A stretch of DNA of 43,081 bases from an uncultured bacterium (GTDB lineage: Bacteria > Patescibacteriota > Minisyncoccia > UBA6257 > UBA9933). Both the position numbers and the translations under genes were made by a program. Below, piece by piece: positions 151-24,988 of this stretch; positions within the stretch are counted from its first letter, which is position 1, and each line of letters starts with the position of its first letter. The DNA lies in NCBI GenBank assembly GCA_913009635.1, contig CAJVXI010000007.1, positions 1 through 43,081 on the forward strand, given 5' to 3'. The notes beneath the pieces were generated by a model. That model was not told where the DNA came from and made no database searches. It saw only the letters and a program-made list of their open reading frames with translations.

Positions 151-1425
151 ATGAGAAGAGAAAAATATTTTACTTTGAGCCAAAATTGTCTTCTAGTTAA
201 AGGAACTTCGCGAGGAGCTATATATAACTTAAATTCTGGTAAAGTTTTTTCTGTGAATAGCAAAAGCGTAAAGATAATAGAGCAACTAAATTCAGGAAAA
301 AACTTGAAAGAAATCTTAAGAAAGAGTAGGACCATAACCAAAGAAGAGATTATTGTTTATTTAAACAAACTTGAAGCTCTTAGTTTAGGAAAATGGAATG
401 GGCGTTACAAAAAAGAAATAGTTGATGTTCCAGAACTTGCCAATATATTAAGGTTTGTTCTCCATCTCGAATTAACTACTGGCTGTAATCTTCGTTGCCT
501 CCACTGCTATAATAAAAGTGAAATAATCAAATTTCATGAAAATAATAAGTTATCCATTGATGATTGGAAGAGAGTGATAACAGAGGCTTATAAAATTGGT
601 GCAAGGAGAGTTCAGTTTATAGGAGGAGAGCCATTTCTGAGGCGAAAGTTGATATTTGAGCTTATTCCCTATGTTCGTGATATTGGATATAAATCTCTTG
701 AAGTAAGCTCTAATGGCACATTTATTTCCAATAGCGATCTTAAAAAACTTAAAGAGCACAATGTGGATTTAGCTTTTTCCTTTTATTGTTCTGATCCTAA
801 TATACACGATAGTATTACTACTAAGAGAGGAAGCCAAGAAAAGACATTACGTACAATTAAGAAAGTTTTAGAAATGAATATTTGTCTTAGGGTATCTGTG
901 GTGGCAATGAAACAGAATGAGAAAGAGATTAAAAAGACAGTTGAATCTCTAAAATCTTTTGGAATTCAACACATAAAGACAAATGTCATTGAACCAGTAG
1001 GTAGGGGCTGCGGCGACGATCTTATCACTGCTGACATATTAGAGCAGCAAATCTTGGACAAACCCTCTTTTTTCAAAATTAACTACAATACATTTTGGAG
1101 AAATAGGATGGGACATAATTGTTTTCTGGAACAGATTTGTATCGGAGCAAACGGAGATGTTTATCCTTGTCTTGCGGAGCGAGAAATTTCTTACGGAAAT
1201 GTAAAATCAGCTTCACTGGATAAAATTTTTTCATCAAGAGTGGCGCAAAAATTTCGGAATTTAAACAAGGACAATATTGAAGTTTGTCGAGATTGTGAAT
1301 ATCGGTATTGTTGTTTTGATTGTCGGGTGAAAGCTAAAGATTTTTTAGTTAATAGTTCTCATGCGAAACCATGGTGGTGTTTCTACGACCCGCACAAGGG
1401 ACAATGGAGTAAAAAAATTAATTAA
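151..1425 (+). CDS. Radical SAM/SPASM peptide maturase with PqqD/RRE-like N-terminus
   Basis: CNLRCLHC (CxxxCxxC) motif, GGEPF, C-terminal SPASM-like Cys cluster (CLAERE...CRDCEYRYCCFDC); PqqD-like N-terminal ~90 aa; strong SD aaaggaggcgag before ATG. Confidence 0.88.
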   Translation: MRREKYFTLSQNCLLVKGTSRGAIYNLNSGKVFSVNSKSVKIIEQLNSGKNLKEILRKSRTITKEEIIVYLNKLEALSLGKWNGRYKKEIVDVPELANILRFVLHLELTTGCNLRCLHCYNKSEIIKFHENNKLSIDDWKRVITEAYKIGARRVQFIGGEPFLRRKLIFELIPYVRDIGYKSLEVSSNGTFISNSDLKKLKEHNVDLAFSFYCSDPNIHDSITTKRGSQEKTLRTIKKVLEMNICLRVSVVAMKQNEKEIKKTVESLKSFGIQHIKTNVIEPVGRGCGDDLITADILEQQILDKPSFFKINYNTFWRNRMGHNCFLEQICIGANGDVYPCLAEREISYGNVKSASLDKIFSSRVAQKFRNLNKDNIEVCRDCEYRYCCFDCRVKAKDFLVNSSHAKPWWCFYDPHKGQWSKKIN

Positions 1426-1442
1426 TAAAGGAGGTGAGAATT

Positions 1443-1571
1443 GTGGAAGAGGACATTAAAAAACAAAAAGAGAGTGATGGACTGGAAATTCAGTTGGTGA
1501 CAAGCGAGTCAGCAGTTGATGGTGTCTGTGGGCCGGATACTTGTCCATGGGTTGGTTGTGAGGTGCGTTAA
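1443..1571 (+). CDS. Candidate RiPP precursor peptide, 42 aa: MEEDIKKQKESDGLEIQLVTSESAVDGVCGPDTCPWVGCEVR
   Basis: GTG start preceded by aaaggaggtga; immediately downstream of the rSAM gene; C-terminal C-x4-C-x4-C (CGPDTCPWVGC); followed by a terminator hairpin. Not in the ORF track (short, GTG start). Confidence 0.72.
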   Translation: MEEDIKKQKESDGLEIQLVTSESAVDGVCGPDTCPWVGCEVR

Positions 1572-1580
1572 ATCTTAGTG

Positions 1581-1618
1581 GCTGTCTTAGACTTTTAAGT
1601 CTTGGGCAGCTCTATTTT
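1581..1618. terminator. Probable intrinsic terminator between convergent genes
   Basis: gctgtcttagactt-tt-aagtcttgggcagc imperfect hairpin followed by T-rich tract. Confidence 0.55.
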
Positions 1619-2416
1619 ATTTCGATTTTTAATTAAAAATTTTTTTAACTCCAATATATTTTTTCCTAATTTACCGGCTAAATATTTTTTCCAATATGGC
1701 AATATTTTCTTTTCTAATAGTAAAAAAGTAGGAGATTCAGTACAAATTTTTCCTTCTTCAAAATATTTTCCTTTTTTATTTAATCTAAGTTTTAATTCAT
1801 TATCTATTAACATAATGATAGCGTGAAGAATATTATAATGAGGTTGAAAATGACCGGGCCAAGTTATAATATGTGACAATTCGTGACAAAGAAAAATTGT
1901 TGAATGATTTTTCCATCTTTCTTTGCATCCTCTGGTAATAGTATTTTGATTAAGCGTTTTACAATTAAGGGATTTTGGATGAGTAATAAATACAGTTATT
2001 TTTCGTTTAGGAATTGACAGTCCAGAAATTTCTCGAAGGTTCTTCAGGGCTTTTTTTTCGTTTCTACTCCATTGATTTTCAATAAATATAAGATGTTTTT
2101 TTGTTTCTTTTAATAATCTTCTAAATTCACTGGATTTAAAAATATCTTGATATATTTTTTCTAAAACTAAACCTTGTTTTTTGAAAATTTTTTTAATATT
2201 ACCATTAGAAAAATTTACTTGAATTTTTTCTAGGGCTAAAGAGATATATTTAGGATTTAAAAAATAATAAGATGGTTCATCTCTGTATTTTCGCCAAATA
2301 CGTTCCTCTAATTTTTTCCAAGCCGGAAAAGGCTTATTTTTTGAAGCCATTGTATATCCCGCTAAGTAGTATTTATTTATTTTAAATCTAAATTTCATAC
2401 CTTTTAATCCTACCAA
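1595..2416 (-). CDS. Putative HExxH zinc-metallopeptidase-like protein
   Basis: IFLCHELSHIITWPGH motif; convergent with the rSAM/precursor pair. Confidence 0.5.
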   Translation of the reverse strand: MVGLKGMKFRFKINKYYLAGYTMASKNKPFPAWKKLEERIWRKYRDEPSYYFLNPKYISLALEKIQVNFSNGNIKKIFKKQGLVLEKIYQDIFKSSEFRRLLKETKKHLIFIENQWSRNEKKALKNLREISGLSIPKRKITVFITHPKSLNCKTLNQNTITRGCKERWKNHSTIFLCHELSHIITWPGHFQPHYNILHAIIMLIDNELKLRLNKKGKYFEEGKICTESPTFLLLEKKILPYWKKYLAGKLGKNILELKKFLIKNRNKIELPKT

Positions 2417-2481
2417 AATTCTTTTATTTTGGCTATTTTGGGTTTTGTTATTAAAGCGGATTTTTTGTATAATATTAAAAC

Positions 2482-2532
2482 ATGTCTAAAACATACTTAC
2501 TTACAGGTGGAACGGGTTTTTTGGGAATATGA
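2482..2532 (+). pseudogene. N-terminal remnant of an NAD(P)-binding epimerase/SDR (MSKTYLLTGGTGFLGI*)
   Basis: TGGTGFLG Rossmann signature, then TGA and no continuation. Confidence 0.5.
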
Positions 2533-2555
2533 ATGGTTTGTGATGCCGTTCAATT

Positions 2556-2582
2556 AAAAAACTTGACTAATCAAGTTTTTTT
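2556..2582 (+). terminator. Intrinsic terminator
   Basis: aaaaaacttga-ctaa-tcaagttttttt perfect stem with T tract. Confidence 0.6.
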
Positions 2583-2660
2583 ATTTTATTATTAAAGTAG
2601 TATAGACCTTGAAAAATAACAAAGAAAAATTTTTGTTTACAAGATAGGGAGGTGGAAGAA

Positions 2661-3659
2661 ATGAAACAAGTGGTTCTTGTGCTGACAAATTCCGAAGATG
2701 GGATTCACACCGATATTGTTATTGAAAAACTTAGGAAAAAGGGTGCTTTAGTGTTTCGATTTGATGTGGATAAGCTTGCTAGCGGTGAAATGAAGGTAAA
2801 ATTCTTTTCTACACAAACTGATTTTGGTTTTACGGCGAAGTATCGAAATAAGATTGTTGATTCTAGAGATGTAAAAAGTATCTGGTATAGAAGGCCGCAG
2901 TATTTAAATCTCCAAATTAGCGATCTTGCCCAGAGAGATTTTGCTAAAAATGAGACAAATAGTTTTTTGGAGGGGCTGTGGTTAAGTATGAAAGAAGTTT
3001 TTTGGGTTAATGATTTTCATAATCTAGAGCGAGCTAGAAAGAAGATTCTTCAATTAAGAATTGCGAGAGAAATTGGCTTTAGGGTTCCTAGTACGATTGT
3101 TACAAATAATCCCGTAGAAGTAAAAAACTTTTTTATTGAGTGTGAAGAGAGAATAATTTTCAAAACTCTTAAACAAGGATTTTTAGAGCACGAGGATGGA
3201 GAGTATAATATTCCAACAACGCTTATCGCACCTTGCCACATTGAGCATATTGATTTAGTAAAGCATTTACCGTCTCTTTTCCAAGAATACATCAATAAAG
3301 ATTATGAGTTACGGATTACCGTGGTTGGAGAAAGGATTTTTGCGGTAAAAATTGATTTTCAGATTTATTCTGAAGCGCCGGTAGATTGGCGGCATCCAGA
3401 TATTAGAAAAAAATTGAGTTACAAAGAGGTGTATATTCCAAGTTGGCTTATTGATCTTTGTTTTGTAATGATGAAAAAATTAGGTCTCCAATTTGGTGCT
3501 TTTGATATTGCAGTAGATAAACATGGTCAATATTTCTTCTTGGAAATTAATCCAAATGGTCAGTGGTATTGGCTAGAACGTCTTGCAGGGGTTTGCATAT
3601 CAGATGCTATTTCTGACATACTGTGTATCGGCCTTTGCGGAAAGGAGGTAAGGTTATGA
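2661..3659 (+). CDS. MvdD/graspetide-type ATP-grasp peptide ligase
   Basis: WYRRP near N-terminal third, FQEYI..DYELRITVVGERIFA, FFLEINPNGQWYWLE ATP-grasp end motif; SD gggaggtgg before ATG 2661 (track start 2652 is an upstream GTG). Confidence 0.82.
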   Translation: MKQVVLVLTNSEDGIHTDIVIEKLRKKGALVFRFDVDKLASGEMKVKFFSTQTDFGFTAKYRNKIVDSRDVKSIWYRRPQYLNLQISDLAQRDFAKNETNSFLEGLWLSMKEVFWVNDFHNLERARKKILQLRIAREIGFRVPSTIVTNNPVEVKNFFIECEERIIFKTLKQGFLEHEDGEYNIPTTLIAPCHIEHIDLVKHLPSLFQEYINKDYELRITVVGERIFAVKIDFQIYSEAPVDWRHPDIRKKLSYKEVYIPSWLIDLCFVMMKKLGLQFGAFDIAVDKHGQYFFLEINPNGQWYWLERLAGVCISDAISDILCIGLCGKEVRL

Positions 3660-3772
3660 TTAGTAAAGTAGCTCCTGAAGTATTTGCAGCTGTCTGTGCA
3701 GTTAAATCTGTCAAGACGGCTGACGATGAGAGCTGGACGGGCCAAGGCTCATCCAAACATAGAGATGACTAA
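3656..3772 (+). CDS. Candidate graspetide precursor peptide, 38 aa: MISKVAPEVFAAVCAVKSVKTADDESWTGQGSSKHRDD
   Basis: ATGA overlap with the ATP-grasp stop; aaaggaggtaagg SD; followed by a strong terminator; C-terminal tail rich in T/S/K and D/E. Not in the ORF track. Confidence 0.68.
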   Translation: MISKVAPEVFAAVCAVKSVKTADDESWTGQGSSKHRDD

Positions 3773-3787
3773 AATTTGTTGTTTCCT

Positions 3788-3819
3788 TTAGGGGGATAGA
3801 CATTGTTTATCCCCCTAAA
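3788..3819 (+). terminator. Intrinsic terminator of the ATP-grasp/precursor operon
   Basis: tttagggggata...tatccccctaaa hairpin followed by T-rich sequence. Confidence 0.65.
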
Positions 3820-3862
3820 TTATTTTATTTACTATTTTAAACAATATAGGATTTTATTAAAA

Positions 3863-4606
3863 ATGCACGAATTTAATTTTTTAAAAAACAGAAAAGAAAC
3901 AGCTATTATTCTTGGAGAAACGCACGGCATTAAAGAAAATGTTATTATTTTAAAAAAATTTGTTGAATTTTATTTAAAACAAAATAAGTGTATTATACTT
4001 GCATTTGAATGGCCTAAAAAACTTACTACAGAAATTAACAAGTATCTCTGTGGCAAGAATAAGAAAATAAATTGGGAAAAGTGGGAATTCATAGCTTATA
4101 ATGATGGAAGAATTTCTCGTGAACATATTAAATTTTTGGGGTGGCTAAAAATAAAGAATAAATCGCTTTCTAAAAAATTGAAAGTTCATGTATATTGCTT
4201 TGATGAGAGGGGTAATACTTGGAATAAAAGAGACAAGCAGATGGCCAGAAATCTTTTCTTTTTATTGAAAAAGAATTCTCAATGCAAGATAGTAATGATT
4301 ATGGGGAATTTGCATGCAAGAAAGAAAAAATTCCTCATTGGGAGAGAAAAATATATTCCATTAGCTTCTTATTTACCAGAGAAGTGTGTGATATCTTTTA
4401 AATTGAAATACGTATCTGGATATTTCTTTAACTTTAGTTTAAAAAAAATAAAACTTAATAAAAAAGAGAAATTGATGAAATCTTTTCTTATTAAGCGATC
4501 GAGAGATTTAAATTTTGACTACGAAATTATAATACAAAAAGCGCATCCAATAACAAAATTAAAGAATTCTAATCTAGTAGCTTTAGTGCAGCAAAGGAAG
4601 AACTAA
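3863..4606 (+). CDS. EreA/ChaN-like (Tiki superfamily) protein
   Basis: GETHG, AFEWP and MGNLHA motifs typical of the erythromycin esterase/ChaN-like fold; internal ATG preferred because the track start at 3803 overlaps the terminator. Confidence 0.5.
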   Translation: MHEFNFLKNRKETAIILGETHGIKENVIILKKFVEFYLKQNKCIILAFEWPKKLTTEINKYLCGKNKKINWEKWEFIAYNDGRISREHIKFLGWLKIKNKSLSKKLKVHVYCFDERGNTWNKRDKQMARNLFFLLKKNSQCKIVMIMGNLHARKKKFLIGREKYIPLASYLPEKCVISFKLKYVSGYFFNFSLKKIKLNKKEKLMKSFLIKRSRDLNFDYEIIIQKAHPITKLKNSNLVALVQQRKN

Positions 4607-4810: not shown

Positions 4811-5689
4811 ATGGAAAATATACCTAAAAATATAAAAATTACAATAGATAATGACCCAAAAGATTACGAAGTTAATAAATTTTTAAGGAAATTTATTAAT
4901 TTCTTTTTAGTTCCGATTTTAAATAGGCTTCCAAGGGGGTTATTTGTTCGTTCTAGTAAAAAGGCTGGAAATGTTCATAAACATGCTACAACTCACAAAG
5001 CATTAGAGATAATTTATTCTTTTGATAATAGTTTTAATTTTAAAAAAGGAATTTTAGATGGTTTTTTTACTTATTTTTGGCAAAAAACTAATAATTGTAA
5101 GGCTTTAAGAAATAGATTGAAATTGGTAAAAAAAGAATTAGATAGAGCGATTCAATCTTTTAATAAAAAAGATATAAAAATATTAAATTTAGCCAGTGGT
5201 TCTAGCGCGGCGGTTATGGATATAATAGTAATGCATAAAAATAATTTTGACTTTGAAGTGCTCGCAGTTGATAAAAACGATTCTGCCATAGAAGATGCTC
5301 AAAAAATGGCTTCTGCACTTGATATATCCCATTTATTTAATTGGAACCAAGATACAATTTCTAATTTTTTTAAGAAATATAATAAAAATATTAAATTTGA
5401 TATAATAGAAATGGTGGGGTTTTTAGATTATCTTAAAGATGATAAAGCTATTTCTTTATTTAATGAAATTCATTCAGCTTTAACAGATGGTGGTATTTTC
5501 ATAACTGGAAACGTAAAAGATAATTCAGAAAAAAGGTTTGCTACCGAAGTTGTTGGTTGGCATAATTTAGTTTTTCGAAATGAATTTGATTTAATGAGAA
5601 TACTTTCAAAGTCAAAATTTAAATCCAGTGATATTAAAATTATTTATGAACCCCAAAATATTCACGGAATAGTTGTGTGTAAAAAATAG
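4811..5689 (+). CDS. Class I SAM-dependent methyltransferase-like protein
   Basis: ILNLASGSSAAVMDI, VLAVDKNDSAI, FDIIEMVGFLDYL motifs. Confidence 0.65.
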   Translation: MENIPKNIKITIDNDPKDYEVNKFLRKFINFFLVPILNRLPRGLFVRSSKKAGNVHKHATTHKALEIIYSFDNSFNFKKGILDGFFTYFWQKTNNCKALRNRLKLVKKELDRAIQSFNKKDIKILNLASGSSAAVMDIIVMHKNNFDFEVLAVDKNDSAIEDAQKMASALDISHLFNWNQDTISNFFKKYNKNIKFDIIEMVGFLDYLKDDKAISLFNEIHSALTDGGIFITGNVKDNSEKRFATEVVGWHNLVFRNEFDLMRILSKSKFKSSDIKIIYEPQNIHGIVVCKK

Positions 5690-5707: not shown

Positions 5708-7333
5708 ATGACTTTTTTTATAATTTCAGCAATAATCAACGCATTTATTGCGGGAGTGCTTGGTTTAGTTGTTATTATAAAAAACAGGAAAGAACTCATA
5801 AATAAATTATTTTTTGGCTTAAGTGTTTCAGTTGTTTTTTGGTCTATAGGATATTGGCAATGGTTATCTTCTGGAGATGCTTCTTTAGCGTTGTTTTGGA
5901 CAAGATTTTTTTCTATAGGTTCGCTTTTTATTCCAATCTTTTATTTTCATTGGATATTAGCGTTTACTAATTTACACATAAAAAACAGAAATTTAATTAA
6001 ATTTTTATACTTTTTTGCATTTATTCTTCTTGCTTTTTCTTTTTCTGATTTATTTATTGAAAAAGTGGAACCAAAATCTATTTTCCCTTTTTGGCCTGTT
6101 CCGGGTATTTTGTATCATTTTTATTTAATTTTTATTTATTTGGGATTATCTATTTATTCTTTAATTATTCTTTTTAATCAATATAGAATAAGTACTGATA
6201 TTAAAAAAGCAAACATTAAATATATTATTTTAGGCTCTTTGATTGGTTTTGGCGGTGGCGCTACTAATTTTTTTCTTTGGTATGACATCCCAATTTTTCC
6301 TTATGGAAATGTTTTAATTTCTGTTTATCCAATAGTGCTTGCTATCGCTAGTTTAAGATATCGCCTTTTTAATATTAAAATCATTGTTGCTGAATTACTT
6401 ATTTTTGTTCTTTGGGCAATATTCTTAGCAAGATGTTTTATGGCAGATACTTTACAGCAAAGAATCGTGGAGGGCGGATTTTTTATGGCAATAACTATTT
6501 TTGGGTTTTTGATTATTCGGAGTGTGCTTGGCGAAGTAAGGCGTCGGGAAGAAGTTGAAAGAATTTCCAAGGAGTTGGAAGGCGCCAATGAGCGTCTTAA
6601 AGAGCTTGATAGAACCAAGACGGAGTTTCTTTCTTTTGCCACCCATCAAATTAAGGCGCCGTTAACAGCTGTTAAGGGATTTGCTTCTTTAGTTGGTGGC
6701 GGTAGTTATGGGGCAGTGCCTGAGAAAGTCAAAGAAGTAAATAAAAGAATTGTTAAAGCAGTTGATCGTTTGGTTGATTTGGTTAACAATATTTTGAATT
6801 TGGGACGAATTGAGAGCGGCAGGATGGAATACAATTTTGAAGAGATTAATTTTGTTGATATGGTTTCAGAAGTTGTTGATGAGCTTAAACTTATAGCTGA
6901 TGAGAAAAAACTTGATTTATTGTTTGATGTTGAGGTGAAAGAAACTCCGAAGGGCACCTCGGCAGGCTCGGTGCCTACGGGGCAGGTAAAAATTAAAGCG
7001 GATCCGCAGAAGTTAAGGCAGGTAATTCAAAATCTGATTGATAATGCCATTAAATACACTCCGGATGGTTTTGTTAAAGTGGCGATTACAAGCGAAAAAG
7101 ATTCAGTTTTATTTTCAGTAGTTGATACTGGAGTGGGAATTCTTCCGGAATTTTTACCAAATCTTTTTCAAAAGTTTGTTAGAGAAACCGCTCCCGGACA
7201 AAGAATCCAAGGTACTGGTTTGGGGCTTTATATCGCCAAAGAAATTATTAAAGCTCACGGTGGTGAGATTTGGGCAGAATCCGAAGGAAGAGGATTTGGC
7301 TCGCAGTTTTTTGTGAGGTTGAAGAAAGTTTGA
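5708..7333 (+). CDS. Sensor histidine kinase with N-terminal 7TM domain
   Basis: Multiple TM helices, H-box FATHQIKAPLTAVKGF, N-box LIDNAIKYTP, G-box GTGLGLYIAKEII. Confidence 0.9.
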   Translation: MTFFIISAIINAFIAGVLGLVVIIKNRKELINKLFFGLSVSVVFWSIGYWQWLSSGDASLALFWTRFFSIGSLFIPIFYFHWILAFTNLHIKNRNLIKFLYFFAFILLAFSFSDLFIEKVEPKSIFPFWPVPGILYHFYLIFIYLGLSIYSLIILFNQYRISTDIKKANIKYIILGSLIGFGGGATNFFLWYDIPIFPYGNVLISVYPIVLAIASLRYRLFNIKIIVAELLIFVLWAIFLARCFMADTLQQRIVEGGFFMAITIFGFLIIRSVLGEVRRREEVERISKELEGANERLKELDRTKTEFLSFATHQIKAPLTAVKGFASLVGGGSYGAVPEKVKEVNKRIVKAVDRLVDLVNNILNLGRIESGRMEYNFEEINFVDMVSEVVDELKLIADEKKLDLLFDVEVKETPKGTSAGSVPTGQVKIKADPQKLRQVIQNLIDNAIKYTPDGFVKVAITSEKDSVLFSVVDTGVGILPEFLPNLFQKFVRETAPGQRIQGTGLGLYIAKEIIKAHGGEIWAESEGRGFGSQFFVRLKKV

Positions 7334-7379: not shown

Positions 7380-7607
7380 ATGAAAAAGCAATACCATTTT
7401 TCAATAATTATAGAACAGGATGAGAATGGCTATTTTGTGTTTTGTCCCGAGCTGCAAGGCTGTTATAGTCAAGGAATTACTCATGAAGAGGCCGTAGAGA
7501 ATATCAAAGACGCTATTAAGCTTCATTTAGAAGACAGGTTTGCTGCACATGAAAAATTAACAGAAACTAAATCAGTTAGTTTATCAACGGTAGAAGTCGC
7601 TGTTTAA
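7380..7607 (+). CDS. hicB: HicB-family antitoxin
   Basis: IIEQDENGYFVFCPELQGCYSQGITHEEAVENIKDAI signature; paired with hicA. Confidence 0.88.
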   Translation: MKKQYHFSIIIEQDENGYFVFCPELQGCYSQGITHEEAVENIKDAIKLHLEDRFAAHEKLTETKSVSLSTVEVAV

Positions 7608-7613
7608 TTTTAT

Positions 7614-7841
7614 ATGCCAAAAGATTTGCCTAAAATAACCGCTAAAGAAATAATAGCCGTTCTTAAAAAAAGCGGTTTTGTTTTATCTCGTCAAAGCGGC
7701 AGTCATAAAATTTACAAACATCAAAATGGCAAGCGAGCAACAGTTCCTTTTCATAGCGGTAAAATTTTACACCCAAAAGTTCTGAAAAGTATTTTAAGAG
7801 ATACTGATATAAGCATCAATCAATTACATAAATTGCTATAG
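7614..7841 (+). CDS. hicA: HicA-family toxin (mRNA interferase)
   Basis: ITAKEIIAVLKKSGFVLSRQSGSHKIYKH...ATVPFHSGKILHPKVLKSIL. Confidence 0.9.
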   Translation: MPKDLPKITAKEIIAVLKKSGFVLSRQSGSHKIYKHQNGKRATVPFHSGKILHPKVLKSILRDTDISINQLHKLL

Positions 7842-10233: not shown

Positions 10234-11523
10234 ATGAAGCCGATTATTGAATTAAAGGGTGTTGATTTTTATTATGACAAGGGTAAACCATCAGAAGTTC
10301 ATGCTTTGAGGGATGCTAATTTAGAGATTAAGCCGGGGGAATATATTAGCTTTTTCGGGCCTTCTGGCTGCGGAAAATCAACAATTCTTTACATTATTTC
10401 CGGAGTTGAACAACCGGAAAAAGGAAAAGTTATTGTTAATGGCCAGGATTTAATAGATTTTTCTTTTAAAGAATTGGCTGTTTATCGTCAGCTTGGGATA
10501 GGTATAATTTTTCAAAATTTTAATCTTATTCCTTCAATTAAAAATATTGAAAACGTCGCTTTACCGATGGCTTTTTTGGGTATTTCGCCTAATATAAGGA
10601 AGAAAAAAGCAATGGAAATTTTTGAGCGTTTAGGAATTGCTGATTTAGCAAATCGTTATCCTTATGAGCTTTCTGGCGGTCAACAGCAAAGAGTTGGTAT
10701 TGCTCGGGCTTTAGCCAATGACCCGCCAATTATTTTAGCAGATGAACCAATAGGTAATCTTGATTCAGATAACGCCACCAAAGTTCTCAATCTCTTAAAA
10801 GAATTTAACTTAAAAGACGGCAAAACAATTATTATGGTTACGCACGAAGCATGGAGTTTACGCGATGTTGGAAGAATTTTTTATATGAGAGATGGGGCTA
10901 TTACTAAAGTTGAAACTAGGAAGCCGGAAAAAGTAAAAAAAATCAATTCTTCTTATTATTACAAAAAACTTTTTCCCGAGCTGCCAACTATTGAGACGCG
11001 TTCTAAAACTTTAGCTACCCTTATTCTTAGGGGTTATTCACAACAGGAAATTAAAAGATTGGAGTATTTTCTTACTCAGCGCTTTAAAAATCAGATTGAT
11101 AAAGATTTATTAAGAAGAGTTTTAGACAGGCCATTTAAAGAAAACGGAGTTGGGCTTTGGAAACAAAAAGCCGAGAAAATTGCTGAATACGTTGAAGGAG
11201 TAATTAAAGAAGAGAAAGAATTGGAAATTCTTTACAAAAAACTTGAGAAAAATCCAGAAGAACCTCTTTATGAAGAAGTTCAACGAATTTATAGCTGGCT
11301 GCTTGAAGGTTGCAGTTTTACTTTGACGCCGTTTCAAAAAGAGCGGATGAATGAAGCTATTAATGAACGAATAAGAAATATTATTACTGCTGAGAATTTT
11401 CAAAAGATTCTTGATTTAGCCAAAGACAGAGGAGGAGTTGGCTTAAGAATAAAGACAAGCTTAAAAATAGCTGAAAAATTAGAAACTATTTTAGGAAGAA
11501 GCAAAAGTAATTTAGTAATATAA
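10234..11523 (+). CDS. MacB/LolD-type ABC transporter ATPase with long C-terminal extension
   Basis: GPSGCGKST, LSGGQQQRVGIARAL, ILADEPIGNLDS; ~200-aa extra C-terminal region. Confidence 0.9.
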   Translation: MKPIIELKGVDFYYDKGKPSEVHALRDANLEIKPGEYISFFGPSGCGKSTILYIISGVEQPEKGKVIVNGQDLIDFSFKELAVYRQLGIGIIFQNFNLIPSIKNIENVALPMAFLGISPNIRKKKAMEIFERLGIADLANRYPYELSGGQQQRVGIARALANDPPIILADEPIGNLDSDNATKVLNLLKEFNLKDGKTIIMVTHEAWSLRDVGRIFYMRDGAITKVETRKPEKVKKINSSYYYKKLFPELPTIETRSKTLATLILRGYSQQEIKRLEYFLTQRFKNQIDKDLLRRVLDRPFKENGVGLWKQKAEKIAEYVEGVIKEEKELEILYKKLEKNPEEPLYEEVQRIYSWLLEGCSFTLTPFQKERMNEAINERIRNIITAENFQKILDLAKDRGGVGLRIKTSLKIAEKLETILGRSKSNLVI

Positions 11524-11533
11524 TAAAATAAAT

Positions 11534-12787
11534 ATGGACCCACAAAAACTTCAAGAGCCAAAATATTTTATTAGTGAATCCAAGGGCCATCATTTGAGAA
11601 TGGGCGATCTTTTTCGACTTTCTTTAAGAGTTTTTCGGATACGGCCTTTGAGAACTTTTTTGACGATTTTTGGAATTTCTTTGGGTATTGGCACCGTGCT
11701 TTTCTTGGTTTCTTTGGGATACGGTCTTCAGTATGTTTTAATCGGGAAACTCGCAACTACTGAAGATTCTCTTATTAGTTTGGAGGCTTTTTATCCAATT
11801 GAAAGTGGTTTAAGTATAAGCAGCGATGATATTAATAGTATTATTGATTTAGAAGAAAGCGAAGAAATCAGTCCAGTATCGGAATTCGCAGGCGAGGTAA
11901 CAACAGATTCATTTTCAGGATTTCTTTTAATGAAAATAATTAAACCGAATTACTTTCGGCTTTCCGGCTTAAAACCTGACATTGGTTCGGTCTTTACCGA
12001 AGAAGAAGAGTCAGTGGTTATATCCAATACGGCATTAAAACTACTTGATTTAAAAGAAGATGAGAGTTCTCTTGGAAAGAAACTTTCTTTGAAAATATTT
12101 TATCAAAATGAAGAAGAAATTGACGTAAAAATAGCTGAAGTTTCTTCTGATATTGGTATTAGAGGAATAGTTATTGATGAATTTCAGCCTCCATTTATTT
12201 TTATTCCATTTGATTCTGTCATTGATAAACCGCCTTCTTATCAGCGAGTTCTTGTTAAAGCAAAAGATATTGATAGCGTGGAATTATTAAAAGACAAATT
12301 GATTGAAAAAGGTTTTTTGATTTCCGCGCGTCTTGATTTGGTAAATCAGGCAAAAAAAATAATGAATATTATTACTGTGATATTGGGAATTTTCGGAGTC
12401 GCGGCTTTGGTGGTTTCATCTATCGGAATGTTCAACACAATGATTATCGGTTTTTTGGAAAGAGTGTTTGAAGTTGGTATAATGAAATCAATCGGCGCAA
12501 GCGCTAAAGATATTCGTAATTTATTTTTAATGGAATCTTTGATTATGGGATTGTTTGGCGGGATAGGAGGAATTTTGATAGGGATTTCAGCAGGTGAAAT
12601 TTTTAATTTTGGTCTTAATTTTTTAGCAAAATATCTTGGAGGAAAGCCAGTTGATTTATTTATTTATCCGTTTCAATTTTTAATTTTTATTATAATAGCT
12701 TCGGGAGTTGTGGGAATTTTGTCAGGTTTTTGGCCAGCTCGTCGAGCTGCCAAGTTATCGCCAAGACAGGCATTTATTAGAAAATAA
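11534..12787 (+). CDS. MacB-like FtsX-family ABC permease
   Basis: Four predicted TM segments, GIMKSIGASAKDIRNLFLMESLIMG motif; adjacent to ATPase. Confidence 0.88.
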   Translation: MDPQKLQEPKYFISESKGHHLRMGDLFRLSLRVFRIRPLRTFLTIFGISLGIGTVLFLVSLGYGLQYVLIGKLATTEDSLISLEAFYPIESGLSISSDDINSIIDLEESEEISPVSEFAGEVTTDSFSGFLLMKIIKPNYFRLSGLKPDIGSVFTEEEESVVISNTALKLLDLKEDESSLGKKLSLKIFYQNEEEIDVKIAEVSSDIGIRGIVIDEFQPPFIFIPFDSVIDKPPSYQRVLVKAKDIDSVELLKDKLIEKGFLISARLDLVNQAKKIMNIITVILGIFGVAALVVSSIGMFNTMIIGFLERVFEVGIMKSIGASAKDIRNLFLMESLIMGLFGGIGGILIGISAGEIFNFGLNFLAKYLGGKPVDLFIYPFQFLIFIIIASGVVGILSGFWPARRAAKLSPRQAFIRK

Positions 12788-21381: not shown

Positions 21382-21387
21382 TTATTT

Positions 21388-21427
<40 letters not shown>

Positions 21428-21587
21428 GATAAGGCATGCAAGTCGAACGACCGAGCACATAACTTGTTATGTGCTCGGTAGTGGCGAACGAGTTAGTAAC
21501 ACCTTGGTACATACCCATCACTCAGGCATAACTCGAGGAAACTCGAGCTAATTCCTGATGGTCTGGTGGCTATATCTTTGGTACAAA

Positions 21588-21735
21588 GTTTATAAAATTT
21601 CTAATTTCTAATTTCTAATTTTTAGTCAATTTTTAATGAATTAATGTTTAAAAATTAAAATATTAAAAATTCAATAAAAATTAATAATTAATAATTAATA
21701 ATTAGTCATTAGCAAGCGTCAATTTATAAAAGATT
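21588..21735 (+). repeat. AT-rich short-unit repeat expansion in 16S V2 region
   Basis: ttctaatttctaatttctaatttttagtcaatttttaatgaatta...aattaataattaataattaataattagtc. Confidence 0.75.
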
Positions 21736-21804
21736 TTGTATTAAAGATTTAGTCGTCAGTAAAGGATACAGCAATGTATTCGGTGTCGGAATGGCCTAGG
21801 TCTG

Positions 21805-21839
<35 letters not shown>

Positions 21840-22033
21840 TATGACCAGTAGGGGGGGTGAGAGCCCGGTCCCCAACGACGTAACTGAGACACGGTGCGTA
21901 CACCTACGGGTGGCAGCAGTCGAGAATATTCCACAATGGGCGAAAGCCTGATGGAGCGACGCCGCGTGCAGGAGGAAGGCCTTCGGGTTGTAAACTGCTT
22001 TTAACTGGGAGAAAGGCGTGCTTCACTATTGTT

Positions 22034-22126
22034 CAGCACTACACAGACTTATACAGACTAGACACGGACTAATACGGAAATTTCAGTATAAGTCAGTTAA
22101 AGTCAGTATAAGTCAGTGAGTGCCGA
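22034..22126 (+). repeat. Palindromic short-unit repeat expansion in 16S V3 region
   Basis: cacagacttatacagactagacacggactaatacgg / reverse complement of cagtataagtcagttaaagtcagtataagtcagtg. Confidence 0.8.
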
Positions 22127-22458
22127 GTGATAGTGAGGCACGTTTGATAGTACTAGTTGAATAAGAGGTTGCTAACTCTGTGCCAGCAGCAGCGGTAATA
22201 CAGAGACCTCAAGCGTTATCCGGATTTATTGGGCGTAAAGGGCGCGTAGGAGGATTGGTAAGTCTAATGTTAAATCCCAGGGCTCAACCTTGGAACCGCA
22301 TTGGATACTATCAAACTAGAGGACGTTAGAGGCAGATGGAACACACGGTGTAGGGGTGAAATCCGTTGATATCGTGTGGAACACCAAAGGCGAAGGCATT
22401 CTGCTGGGGCGTTCCTGACTTTAAGGCGCGAAAGCGTGGGGAGCAAAAAGGATTAGAT

Positions 22459-23459
22459 AAATCCTTGCCTGCCAAAATTTTACTAAATAGTAGAAGTTAG
22501 GCGGGCGAATGGTGTCCCTTCCGACGGCGACGTCGGAATGCGCATCTAGCTGTATCGGGGAAACCCATTTAATCAAATGGGCAATCCCGAGGGAAGTCGC
22601 CGTCCAAAATTTAGGGCGGATTGACCCCGTAGAGACTATGTAAATTAATAAAGATAGAAAATGACTAATTCATTTTTGTCAAAACAGTGCAAAGAAGTTA
22701 TTTTAGGTTCTTTACTTGGCGATGGATCATTAAAAATTCATCATCAATATAAGAATGCGCGTTTTTCATTTCGTCATTCAATTAAACAAAAAGAATATTT
22801 TTTCTGGAAATTAAAACAATTAAAAGAGATTTCCGGAGAAAAATGTTGGTGGATTCAGAGTAATAATGAATTAGGCGGCGATAAACTTCGTTACCAAAGT
22901 TTAGCTCTTAAATCTTTAACCGACTTGTATCAATTGACGCACAAAAGACAAAGGTTGCGTATTCGCCGTAAATGGCTAAATATGCTTACACCTCTTTCAT
23001 TGGCCGTATGGTGGTTAGATGATGGTTCATTAATCACAAATGGTCGGCGAGGCGTTTTGTGTACAGATTCTTTTTCTTATGAAGAGCAAAAACTTATAGC
23101 TCGTTACTTATATAAAATATGGGATGTAAAAGTTGCTATAGGGAAAATTCATAGAGAATGGAATGGGAAACTAGCCGAATATTATCGGTTATGGATTCGA
23201 TCAAGCAAAGAATTACAAAAATTGTTGCGGATTATCTTGCCGTACATCAAAATAGTTTCAATGCTGCCGAAAGTATTACTAATGTATAAAAACATTAATT
23301 TACAACAACGCTGGATCTCTGAAGTTAGTAAAACAACAGGCTTTTCTCAAACAGTTATTGAAAAGTATCTTAATGAGAAAAAATCTCGTTGGAAAAAATT
23401 CAGAGAATGATATAGTCCGATCCTTCAAGTAATTGGAGTAAAGTAAAATCTACAAGATG
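22459..23459 (+). mobile_element. Group I intron in 16S (near E. coli 793/794) encoding a LAGLIDADG endonuclease
   Basis: Splits universally conserved ATTAGATACCC; R/S-like P7 elements gtagagactatg and gatatagtcc; 5' exon ending T and intron ending G; HEG between R and S. Confidence 0.82.
22661..23410 (+). CDS. LAGLIDADG homing endonuclease (two-motif)
   Basis: ILGSLLGDGSL and LAVWWLDDGSL motifs; inside group I intron. Confidence 0.9.
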   Translation: MTNSFLSKQCKEVILGSLLGDGSLKIHHQYKNARFSFRHSIKQKEYFFWKLKQLKEISGEKCWWIQSNNELGGDKLRYQSLALKSLTDLYQLTHKRQRLRIRRKWLNMLTPLSLAVWWLDDGSLITNGRRGVLCTDSFSYEEQKLIARYLYKIWDVKVAIGKIHREWNGKLAEYYRLWIRSSKELQKLLRIILPYIKIVSMLPKVLLMYKNINLQQRWISEVSKTTGFSQTVIEKYLNEKKSRWKKFRE

Positions 23460-23819
23460 ACCCTTGTAGTCCACGCCCTAAATGATGTTCACTAGCTGTT
23501 TCGAGTATCGACCCTCGGAGTGGCGAAGCTAACGCGTTAAGTGAACCGCCTGGGAAGTACGGTCGCAAGACTAAAACTTAAAGGAATAGACGGGGACTCG
23601 CACAAGCGGTGGAGCATGAGGTTTAATTCGATAATAAACGAGGAACCTTACCAGGGCTTGAAATTCTAATGAAAGCTTTCCGAAAGGATTGCCTTCTCTC
23701 AAGGACATTAGGACAGGTGCTGCACGGTCGTCGTCAGCTCGTGATTTGAATTGTTCCCTTAAGTGGGGTAACGAGCGCAACCCTTACTGAATGTTATATG
23801 TGTCATTCGGGACTGCCCC

Positions 23820-23872
23820 CTCCTAAGTTTTTGAAAAATTTTAAAAGTTCAAAAATTTAGGAGGGGGAGGAA
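23820..23872 (+). repeat. Expanded 16S helix (around h39) with AT-rich arms
   Basis: ccccctcctaagtttttgaaaaattttaaaagttcaaaaatttaggaggggg replaces a normally short hairpin before aggaaggtggggatgacg. Confidence 0.65.
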
Positions 23873-24095
23873 GGTGGGGATGACGCCAGATCAGCGTGGC
23901 CCTTTGATGCCCTGGGCTACACTCATGCTACAATGGATAATACAATGGGCTGCGAAGTCGCAAGACGGAGCCAATCCCATCAAAATTATTCTCAGTTCGG
24001 ATTGAGGGCTGCAATTTGCCCTCATGAAGTCGGAATCGCTAGTAATCGTGCATCAGCTATGGCACGGTGAATACGTTCTCGAGTCCTGTACTCAC

Positions 24096-24988
24096 AATGA
24101 ACGCGCCTGGCAGATTATTTTGTCCCGATGTAAAAATCGGGATCTCGACCATTGCGTCGGGGCTAAATGGTTAAAATCCATTCCCCCGTTAGATAAGCTA
24201 TCCGTTATGCTATTTAATGGGGCGTAGTTGAAAGACAGTTGGTTGTCGCGAGGCAATCGGCGGAGGGTCTGGAAACAAAAAGTAGCCCGAACAAAAACAA
24301 GAGTTAATCGATTTATGATTGGGTGGTGAGCATAGAGAAGATTATTTAAAAGCTCGTTCGGGATGTTTTAGAAAAGTAAAATAGTTGACCCAGGGAGATC
24401 TGATGCAGTATAATGAAACTAACGCTGCGTCAGAAGTCAGCTGGATCATAGTAGTTCGACGTCACGTCGGACAAAGGATCCACTCTAATGTAATACTTAA
24501 TTCAAACTATATTATTGGCTTAGTAGATGGCGAAGGCAGTTTTACTCTTTATATAAGAGACCCAGATGTGCCTAAAAAGGTCAAAAGACGCGTAAAGATA
24601 AAACCGAGATTTTATATTAAACTTATAGAGAAAGATAAAAAAATTCTTTATAAGTTAAAGGATTTTTTCGGTTGTGGTAATGTTTATTTTCAGAGAGATA
24701 AACGTCTTAATCATCAAAATTGTTATCGTTACGAAATAGCCAATAGGAAAGATTTAGAAAATGTAATTATTCCGTTTTTTAAGAAACATAAATTATAGAT
24801 AGATTCTAAAAGAAAGGATTTTAGAATTTTCTGTGATTTGATGAAAAGAATTAAAAAAGGAGAACATTTAATTAAATCAGGATTAAGAAATCTTTATAAA
24901 ATCAAAGGAAAGATGCATTAGAGCTCGTCGCGTGCGGGAAATCCGCAGGCGCGATGGGAACGCCAATGTTGAGTTTCCAACAAGCAGT
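24096..24988 (+). mobile_element. HEG-bearing intervening sequence in 16S near E. coli 1399/1400; intron class unresolved
   Basis: Interrupts conserved gtactcac//cgcccgtcacacc decoding-site sequence; carries LAGLIDADG ORF. Confidence 0.82.
24385..24921 (+). pseudogene. LAGLIDADG homing endonuclease with in-frame amber codon at 24796-24798
   Basis: YIIGLVDGEGSFTLYI...FFKKHKL*IDSKRKDFRIFCDLMKRIKKGEHLIKSGLRNLYKIKGKMH*: same frame continues with family-like sequence after TAG. Confidence 0.75.

Follow-up and report, generated by a model that had tools for sequence, protein, structure and literature searches.

The window analyzed here is the whole of contig C7, 43,081 nucleotides (nt) long, from G000, a 713-kb genome (98% complete) of an uncultured bacterium of the candidate phyla radiation (CPR; Parcubacteria type). 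It carries, side by side, two modules for the modification of peptides of the ribosomally synthesized and post-translationally modified (RiPP) kind: module B, with a radical S-adenosylmethionine (rSAM) enzyme bearing a SPASM domain, and module A, with an ATP-grasp ligase. Because the first base of the window is also the first base of the contig, the rSAM gene lies 150 bases from the contig end, and the stretch upstream of it is unseen. The features of the two modules are as follows, with the basis of each assignment in parentheses.

151 to 1425, plus strand: rSAM/SPASM maturase of 424 residues, module B (Pfam, PDB profile, model)
1443 to 1571, plus strand: Cys-rich precursor of 42 residues, module B, with a GTG start and the Shine–Dalgarno (SD) sequence AAGGAGG (homologues beside the rSAM family)
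1576 to 1614, plus strand: hairpin 3' of precursor B, inside which the convergent HExxH gene terminates (minimum free energy −18.7 kcal/mol, z −4.7)
1595 to 2398, minus strand: HExxH protein, a gluzincin-like candidate metallopeptidase, module B (linkage, model, Foldseek)
2661 to 3659, plus strand: graspetide-type ATP-grasp ligase of 332 residues, module A (PF21068, PDB profiles)
3656 to 3772, plus strand: graspetide precursor of 38 residues, module A, overlapping the ATP-grasp gene by ATGA, with the SD sequence AAGGAGG (homologues in the clade)
3787 to 3819, plus strand: terminator hairpin 3' of precursor A (15-bp stem with U-tract, z −4.8)
3863 to 4606, plus strand: Tiki/ChaN/EreA-like protein, a candidate peptidase or hydrolase, module A (linkage, motifs, sub-threshold Pfam matches)

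The original prediction, an earlier note on this DNA, had named the rSAM gene, the 42-residue open reading frame (ORF), the HExxH ORF, the ATP-grasp gene, the 38-residue ORF with its ATGA overlap and the ChaN/EreA-like ORF, and all of them are present at the positions it gave. The strong SD sequences that it noted on the small ORFs are likewise there; intergenic ORFs of 30–60 residues with an SD sequence of at least 6 nt number just three in the window, namely the two candidate precursors and one inside the 16S gene. Its claim of a terminator after each small ORF holds in part: both hairpins are far stronger than those of shuffled sequences, but a consensus terminator scan found a U-tract only after the 38-residue ORF.

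Comparative evidence was drawn from 244 genomes of the window's order, from more distant members of the class, and from a public contig scan. Pfam, NCBIfam, and PDB profile searches bear out the assignment of both enzymes to RiPP-maturase types. The ATP-grasp protein matches PF21068, the MvdD pre-ATP-grasp domain, with 62.2 bits against a cut-off of 27, and its PDB profile matches are the ATP grasp ligases 5ig8/5ig9, AMdnB, and CdnC. It attains no NCBIfam cut-off (TIGR04187, 246 bits, lies under its cut-off of 350), and the ATP-grasp signature NPNGQW is invariant among the ATP-grasps compared. A homologous precursor occurs in all seven genomes of the ATP-grasp clade (support 100/98 in the ATP-grasp tree), in each case adjacent and with a core containing Ser/Thr and Asp/Glu. 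The sequence in the window is MISKVAPEVFAAVCAVKSVKTADDESWTGQGSSKHRDD; its homologues read MSPEIFAAICAVESSEQLSEVTASWTGQGSFKHQDD in G012 (= L096), a genome of the same family labelled Ca. Wolfebacteria, MKKAETFAFTCIVESAVDPVEHTSWTTGSDTGSDADD in REEB144, a locus added by the public contig scan, and MDPAQVFAALIATPPLDQCPLGGKATLTTWKGTDPDD in G232, and the peptides of G236 and G026/G176 are alike. They share a plan in which a leader with [EQ]-x-F-A is followed by an S/T-W/Y...DD end, and the more distant G049 likewise has an A-type peptide together with a Tiki-like gene. A motif built from these precursors has eight matches among the 13,762 small ORFs of the fetched loci; all eight flank ATP-grasps, and one of them (G020) was not among the sequences from which the motif was built. 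The graspetide leader motif Phhx(1,2)h is absent from seven of the eight A-type peptides, including that of the window. Between the window and G012, the precursor similarity exceeds that of shuffled sequences (p 5e-4), and the differences fall 11, 8, and 22 on the three codon positions, which speaks for purifying selection. No Pfam or NCBIfam model covers either precursor of the window, the match to variant_MftA reaching 13 bits, far under its cut-off of 30.

The Tiki-like protein is found in just 7 of the 244 genomes, all seven of which have an ATP-grasp with an A-type precursor; the genes are adjacent in six, and in G176 they lie at the ends of different contigs. It carries GETHG at residue 18 and GNLHA at residue 148, and in the alignment the GNxHA core is invariant and GExHG is present in the full-length rows. 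Its Pfam scores stay under the cut-offs, with 20 bits of 27.7 for ChaN and 15.6 of 26.4 for EreA.

In module B, the rSAM enzyme matches the Pfam families Radical_SAM (80 bits) and SPASM (47 bits), and has CxxxCxxC at C112/C116/C119 together with a full set of SPASM cysteines. Its best PDB profile match is SkfB (3e-23), and the top Foldseek matches of its AlphaFold model (mean predicted local distance difference test score, pLDDT, 78.7) are SkfB, CteB, and SuiB, nearly full-length, with SkfB and CteB first. The model has an N-terminal β4-α3 unit, which is consistent with a PqqD-like RiPP recognition element (RRE) at about residues 5–76; in the window's own protein this element is seen only in the model, and the N-terminus of a relative weakly matches PqqD (E 4.5e-4). 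At E ≤ 1e-30, the order holds 11 proteins of this rSAM family. In the G136 member (L091 6675–7952), an Arg replaces the first Cys of CxxxCxxC.

The adjacent precursor B has the sequence VEEDIKKQKESDGLEIQLVTSESAVDGVCGPDTCPWVGCEVR and the C-terminal end CGPDTCPWVGCEVR. Besides the window, precursors were read beside seven members of its rSAM family in the order (G020, G021, G136, G191, G047, G098, and G087). Those of G021, G136, and G087 read ...KLKLEIKEVTRGGLVGASQCPVMGCTPNDPTQGCPPDPCNPR, ...MELTKVTSDLNQELGRCIPQCGPDCSPACSPFVD, and ...SQCCKPGPCSPKW, respectively, and that of G191 reads MELIKVTS...CNPDIVPCNPEVCGPYTFP; farther off in the class, G369, G329, and G375 have peptides of the form ...QCCKPGPCSPK or ...QCCNPGPCSPKW beside the rSAM gene. 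The peptides are rich in Cys and Pro (C-x-P), with Asp or Asn between the Cys residues, and most of the 11 loci of the order have one. No Cys-rich precursor was recognized at the rSAM loci of G100, G112, and G195. For precursor B of the window, the best alignment is to the G020 peptide with its in-frame TAG read through (LEIxxVT...AVxGxCGPxTC; shuffle p 5e-4); the similarity to that of G021 has a shuffle p of 1.5e-3. Homologues of precursor B stand in G020, G021, G136, and G191, and the significant shuffle values range from 5e-4 to 0.015. For the close pair G369/G329, a dN of 0.10 and a dS of 0.68 indicate purifying selection on the precursor. The original prediction had taken both small ORFs for candidate precursors; they behave as dedicated and conserved ones, and the test for their absence in relatives did not refute it.

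The HExxH gene had been described as lying between the modules. Its position is as stated, but its association is closer than that: it stands beside the rSAM gene in all 11 loci of the order and in three loci of the class (G369, G329, and G375), just as the Tiki/EreA-like gene goes with the ATP-grasp. In the distant class member G476, no HExxH gene was seen near the rSAM gene. The protein has HELSH at residue 172, with HELxH and a downstream DNEL conserved in the alignment. Its model (pLDDT 89.5) has weak Foldseek matches, almost all of them to zinc metallopeptidases and mainly to gluzincins (thermolysin-type and M1). The genome of the window encodes a second HExxH paralogue without an rSAM gene (G000:C5; L250 6329–7105), adjoining a TraB/PrgY-looking ORF, and in G235 (L255 4359–4508) a Cys-rich peptide adjoins an HExxH gene with no rSAM gene recognized nearby.

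Whether the locus is one hybrid system or two adjacent ones had been left open by the original prediction. Module A occurs without B in G232, G236, and G026, and module B without A in G136, G047, G087, G329, and G369. Because the modules occur separately, the data favour two adjacent systems over a single hybrid, and we hold with good confidence that two RiPP modules, separable but adjacent here, make up the locus, and that each has a maturase, a precursor, and a candidate peptidase to itself. An improbable alternative is a hybrid pathway, in which the ATP-grasp and rSAM enzymes modify the same peptide, or both peptides act as one product, like the grasp-with-SPASM systems of Bacteroidetes. 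It would account for the finding that an rSAM gene with SPASM domain lies within ~8 kb in 7 of 9 ATP-grasp loci of the window's family, against 0 of 10 in the rest of the order's families (Fisher p 7e-4, in a count that ignores shared ancestry and includes some short contigs outside the family), and Makarova 2022, in its treatment of the branch-2 CPR loci, notes SPASM genes in many of them (PMC8939145). The closeness of the two genes in the window's family is not random. However, each maturase is paired with a separate precursor and is found in genomes where the other is missing, both enzymes score far under the grasp-with-SPASM cut-offs (TIGR04192, 103.9 against 230; TIGR04193, 91.4 against 175), and the co-located partners in relatives belong to unrelated ATP-grasp clades and to different rSAM and peptide families.

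Several observations weigh against the two-module assignment or parts of it. The C-termini of the precursors diverge strongly between genera, and several pairwise tests with distant precursors are not significant by shuffling. At ~15242 of L053, the G020 precursor is interrupted by an in-frame TAG, which separates the leader from the Cys-rich core, although the rSAM gene stays open. REEB144 has precursor A, but no Tiki gene in the ~850 nt seen downstream. The structural matches of the HExxH protein, although of metallopeptidase type, are weak (best E 0.35), which makes a peptidase a reasonable call rather than a proven one. Its family also stands by itself in roughly half of the genomes that have it, so that its role may be broader; a strict bond between HExxH and rSAM genes in both directions is thereby ruled out. 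Finally, the locus has no dedicated exporter, and a search of the genome for a C39 peptidase gave none. On this result a C39 exporter-peptidase was rejected; the absence fits dedicated peptidases, without proving them. A MacB-type ABC transporter ATPase and permease lie at 10234–12787, ~6.5 kb downstream of the ATP-grasp module; the linkage data give no support to this transporter as a dedicated exporter.

On the model that we propose for the two modules, the ATP-grasp would bind the [EQ]-x-F-A leader of the 38-residue precursor and form ester or amide bonds between side chains of Ser/Thr (or Lys) and the Asp residues at the C-terminus (S-W-T-G-x-G-S...D-D), after which the Tiki/EreA-like protein may trim or further process the modified peptide. 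In module B, the RRE-bearing rSAM/SPASM enzyme would grip the leader (L-E-I-x-x-V-T) of the 42-residue precursor and install cross-links on its Cys residues, and the adjacent HExxH protein, as a putative metallopeptidase, would remove the leader. The putative bond types (Ser/Thr-Asp esters or amides in A, Cys cross-links in B) and peptidase roles are drawn from the enzyme families, and we infer likewise the export and the biological target of the products. By analogy with its closest model matches, the thioether-forming enzymes SkfB and CteB, the rSAM enzyme most likely forms thioethers. It is nevertheless quite possible that it makes another modification than sactipeptide-type thioethers, such as a C-C cross-link, an epimerization, or a Cys-Asp/Glu ranthipeptide bond, as the C-x-P-rich precursors with Asp or Asn between the Cys residues and the presence of SuiB, a C-C bond former, among the structural neighbours would allow; the conservation of multiple Cys residues and the first rank of SkfB and CteB argue against it. 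It is also conceivable, though rather unlikely, that the HExxH and Tiki-like proteins serve in immunity or quality control instead of leader removal. HExxH paralogues do exist without an rSAM gene, and Makarova 2022, where it discusses erythromycin-esterase homologues in graspetide loci, offers resistance as an option (PMC8939145). Against this reading stand the near-perfect linkage of each protein to one maturase type, a genome devoid of C39, and a proposal of leader cleavage in that same paper. That the small ORFs are spurious reading frames, as their shortness and divergence between genera might suggest, is barely credible given that just two such ORFs occur outside the rRNA gene in 43 kb, that homologues stand at the same place in relatives, and that the differences are biased by codon position.

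Downstream of the two modules lie two further genes that may belong with them:

4811 to 5689, plus strand: S-adenosylmethionine-dependent methyltransferase, a possible accessory of the island (PF13847 above cut-off; relative near the G018 pair)
5708 to 7333, plus strand: 7TM histidine kinase, a possible regulator of the island (HisKA_7TM, HisKA, HATPase_c)

The methyltransferase relative in G018 adjoins an ATP-grasp/rSAM pair, and in five of six genomes of the window's family the RiPP locus has a HisKA kinase no more than 7 kb away. The gene rplY and a transglycosylase-like gene are neighbours common to the window and G020 loci, and the ATP-grasps at the family's syntenic sites fall into different clades of the tree. 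These signs, from few genomes and one syntenic site, suggest an island with exchanged cassettes. Our tentative reading is that genomes of the window's family retain a conserved RiPP island next to rplY and a histidine kinase, where triads of dedicated maturase, precursor, and peptidase are swapped like cassettes and a zincin or Tiki-like protein replaces the usual C39 transporter-peptidase. If so, the cross-linked peptides available to these tiny episymbionts would change as cassettes are swapped. A third module type, consisting of an rSAM gene, a Trp-rich peptide (...WPDWxNxxDF...; shuffle p 2e-4), and another HExxH protein, occurs in G009 (L060 9747–12035) and in G012 (L057 3030–5304), where the rSAM gene looks frameshifted. 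A HicB/HicA-like toxin–antitoxin pair, named from sequence only, lies at 7380–7841 of the window, and G012 has a related pair close to its locus (L057 14569–15078).

A phage origin of the locus was rejected, as single-protein viral scans gave no close relative and profile scans only distant ones, and so was a plasmid origin, the only plasmid matches being ATP-grasps at ~34% identity or less. Fourteen IMG/VR viral contigs (L176–L189) encode graspetide-type ATP-grasps at 28–36% identity. Elsewhere in the window, the only Rfam match is to 16S rRNA (21382–24153), spanning 2772 bases against a 1533-position model; an ORF of 249 residues resembling a homing endonuclease (22661–23410) lies within it, indicating an intron-bearing 16S gene, and a second such ORF lies directly past it (24403–24798).

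With respect to known systems, module A resembles microviridin/MvdC-MvdD-type graspetides (MdnC, AMdnB, CdnC, and PsnB) in its ATP-grasp fold and signature, and in a short precursor with an N-terminal leader and a Ser/Thr and Asp core, whereas it has an [EQ]-x-F-A leader in place of the PFFxxFL type, has a dedicated Tiki-like neighbour, and lacks a C39-type exporter. Module B shares with the sactipeptide and ranthipeptide maturases SkfB and CteB the combination of RRE, radical SAM, and SPASM domains and a Cys-rich precursor adjoining the gene, but the identity in structural alignment is ~20%, the precursors are C-x-P-rich, and a gene for an HExxH peptidase-like protein is adjacent. Like the Bacteroidetes grasp-with-SPASM systems (TIGR04192/TIGR04193), the locus places an ATP-grasp next to a SPASM protein; unlike them, it has two separate precursors, both models score far under cut-off, and the maturases are not obligately linked.

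The closest counterparts are the branch-2 CPR graspetide loci, and the view in the original prediction that such a locus would be surprising in a CPR genome is outdated: other CPR RiPP clusters were reported in 2020 (PMC7298704), and Makarova 2022, in its account of the CPR graspetide loci, describes SPASM, zincin, Tiki/TraB, and methyltransferase neighbours (PMC8939145). Here, too, the ATP-grasp is accompanied by SPASM and methyltransferase genes and by candidate zincin and Tiki-type genes. According to that account, a precursor was not confidently identifiable for most branch-2 loci, small ORFs having perhaps been missed, so that precursors are given there for few loci only, whereas here both modules have them. 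The passages on these loci do not report the zincin–rSAM pairing or a separate rSAM precursor (PMC8939145), and the Phhx(1,2)h leader motif given there is missing from seven of the eight A-type precursors here. For CPR graspetide loci, the present analysis provides precursors that had been missing, and it shows that neighbouring SPASM and zincin genes can be part of another peptide system, distinct from the graspetide one. Heterologous expression can therefore put the products to a direct test, in organisms whose signals and weapons directed at hosts or rivals are almost unknown. New relative to the systems above are two families of precursors, the assignment to each maturase of a precursor and a candidate peptidase, and the signs of swapping at one syntenic site.

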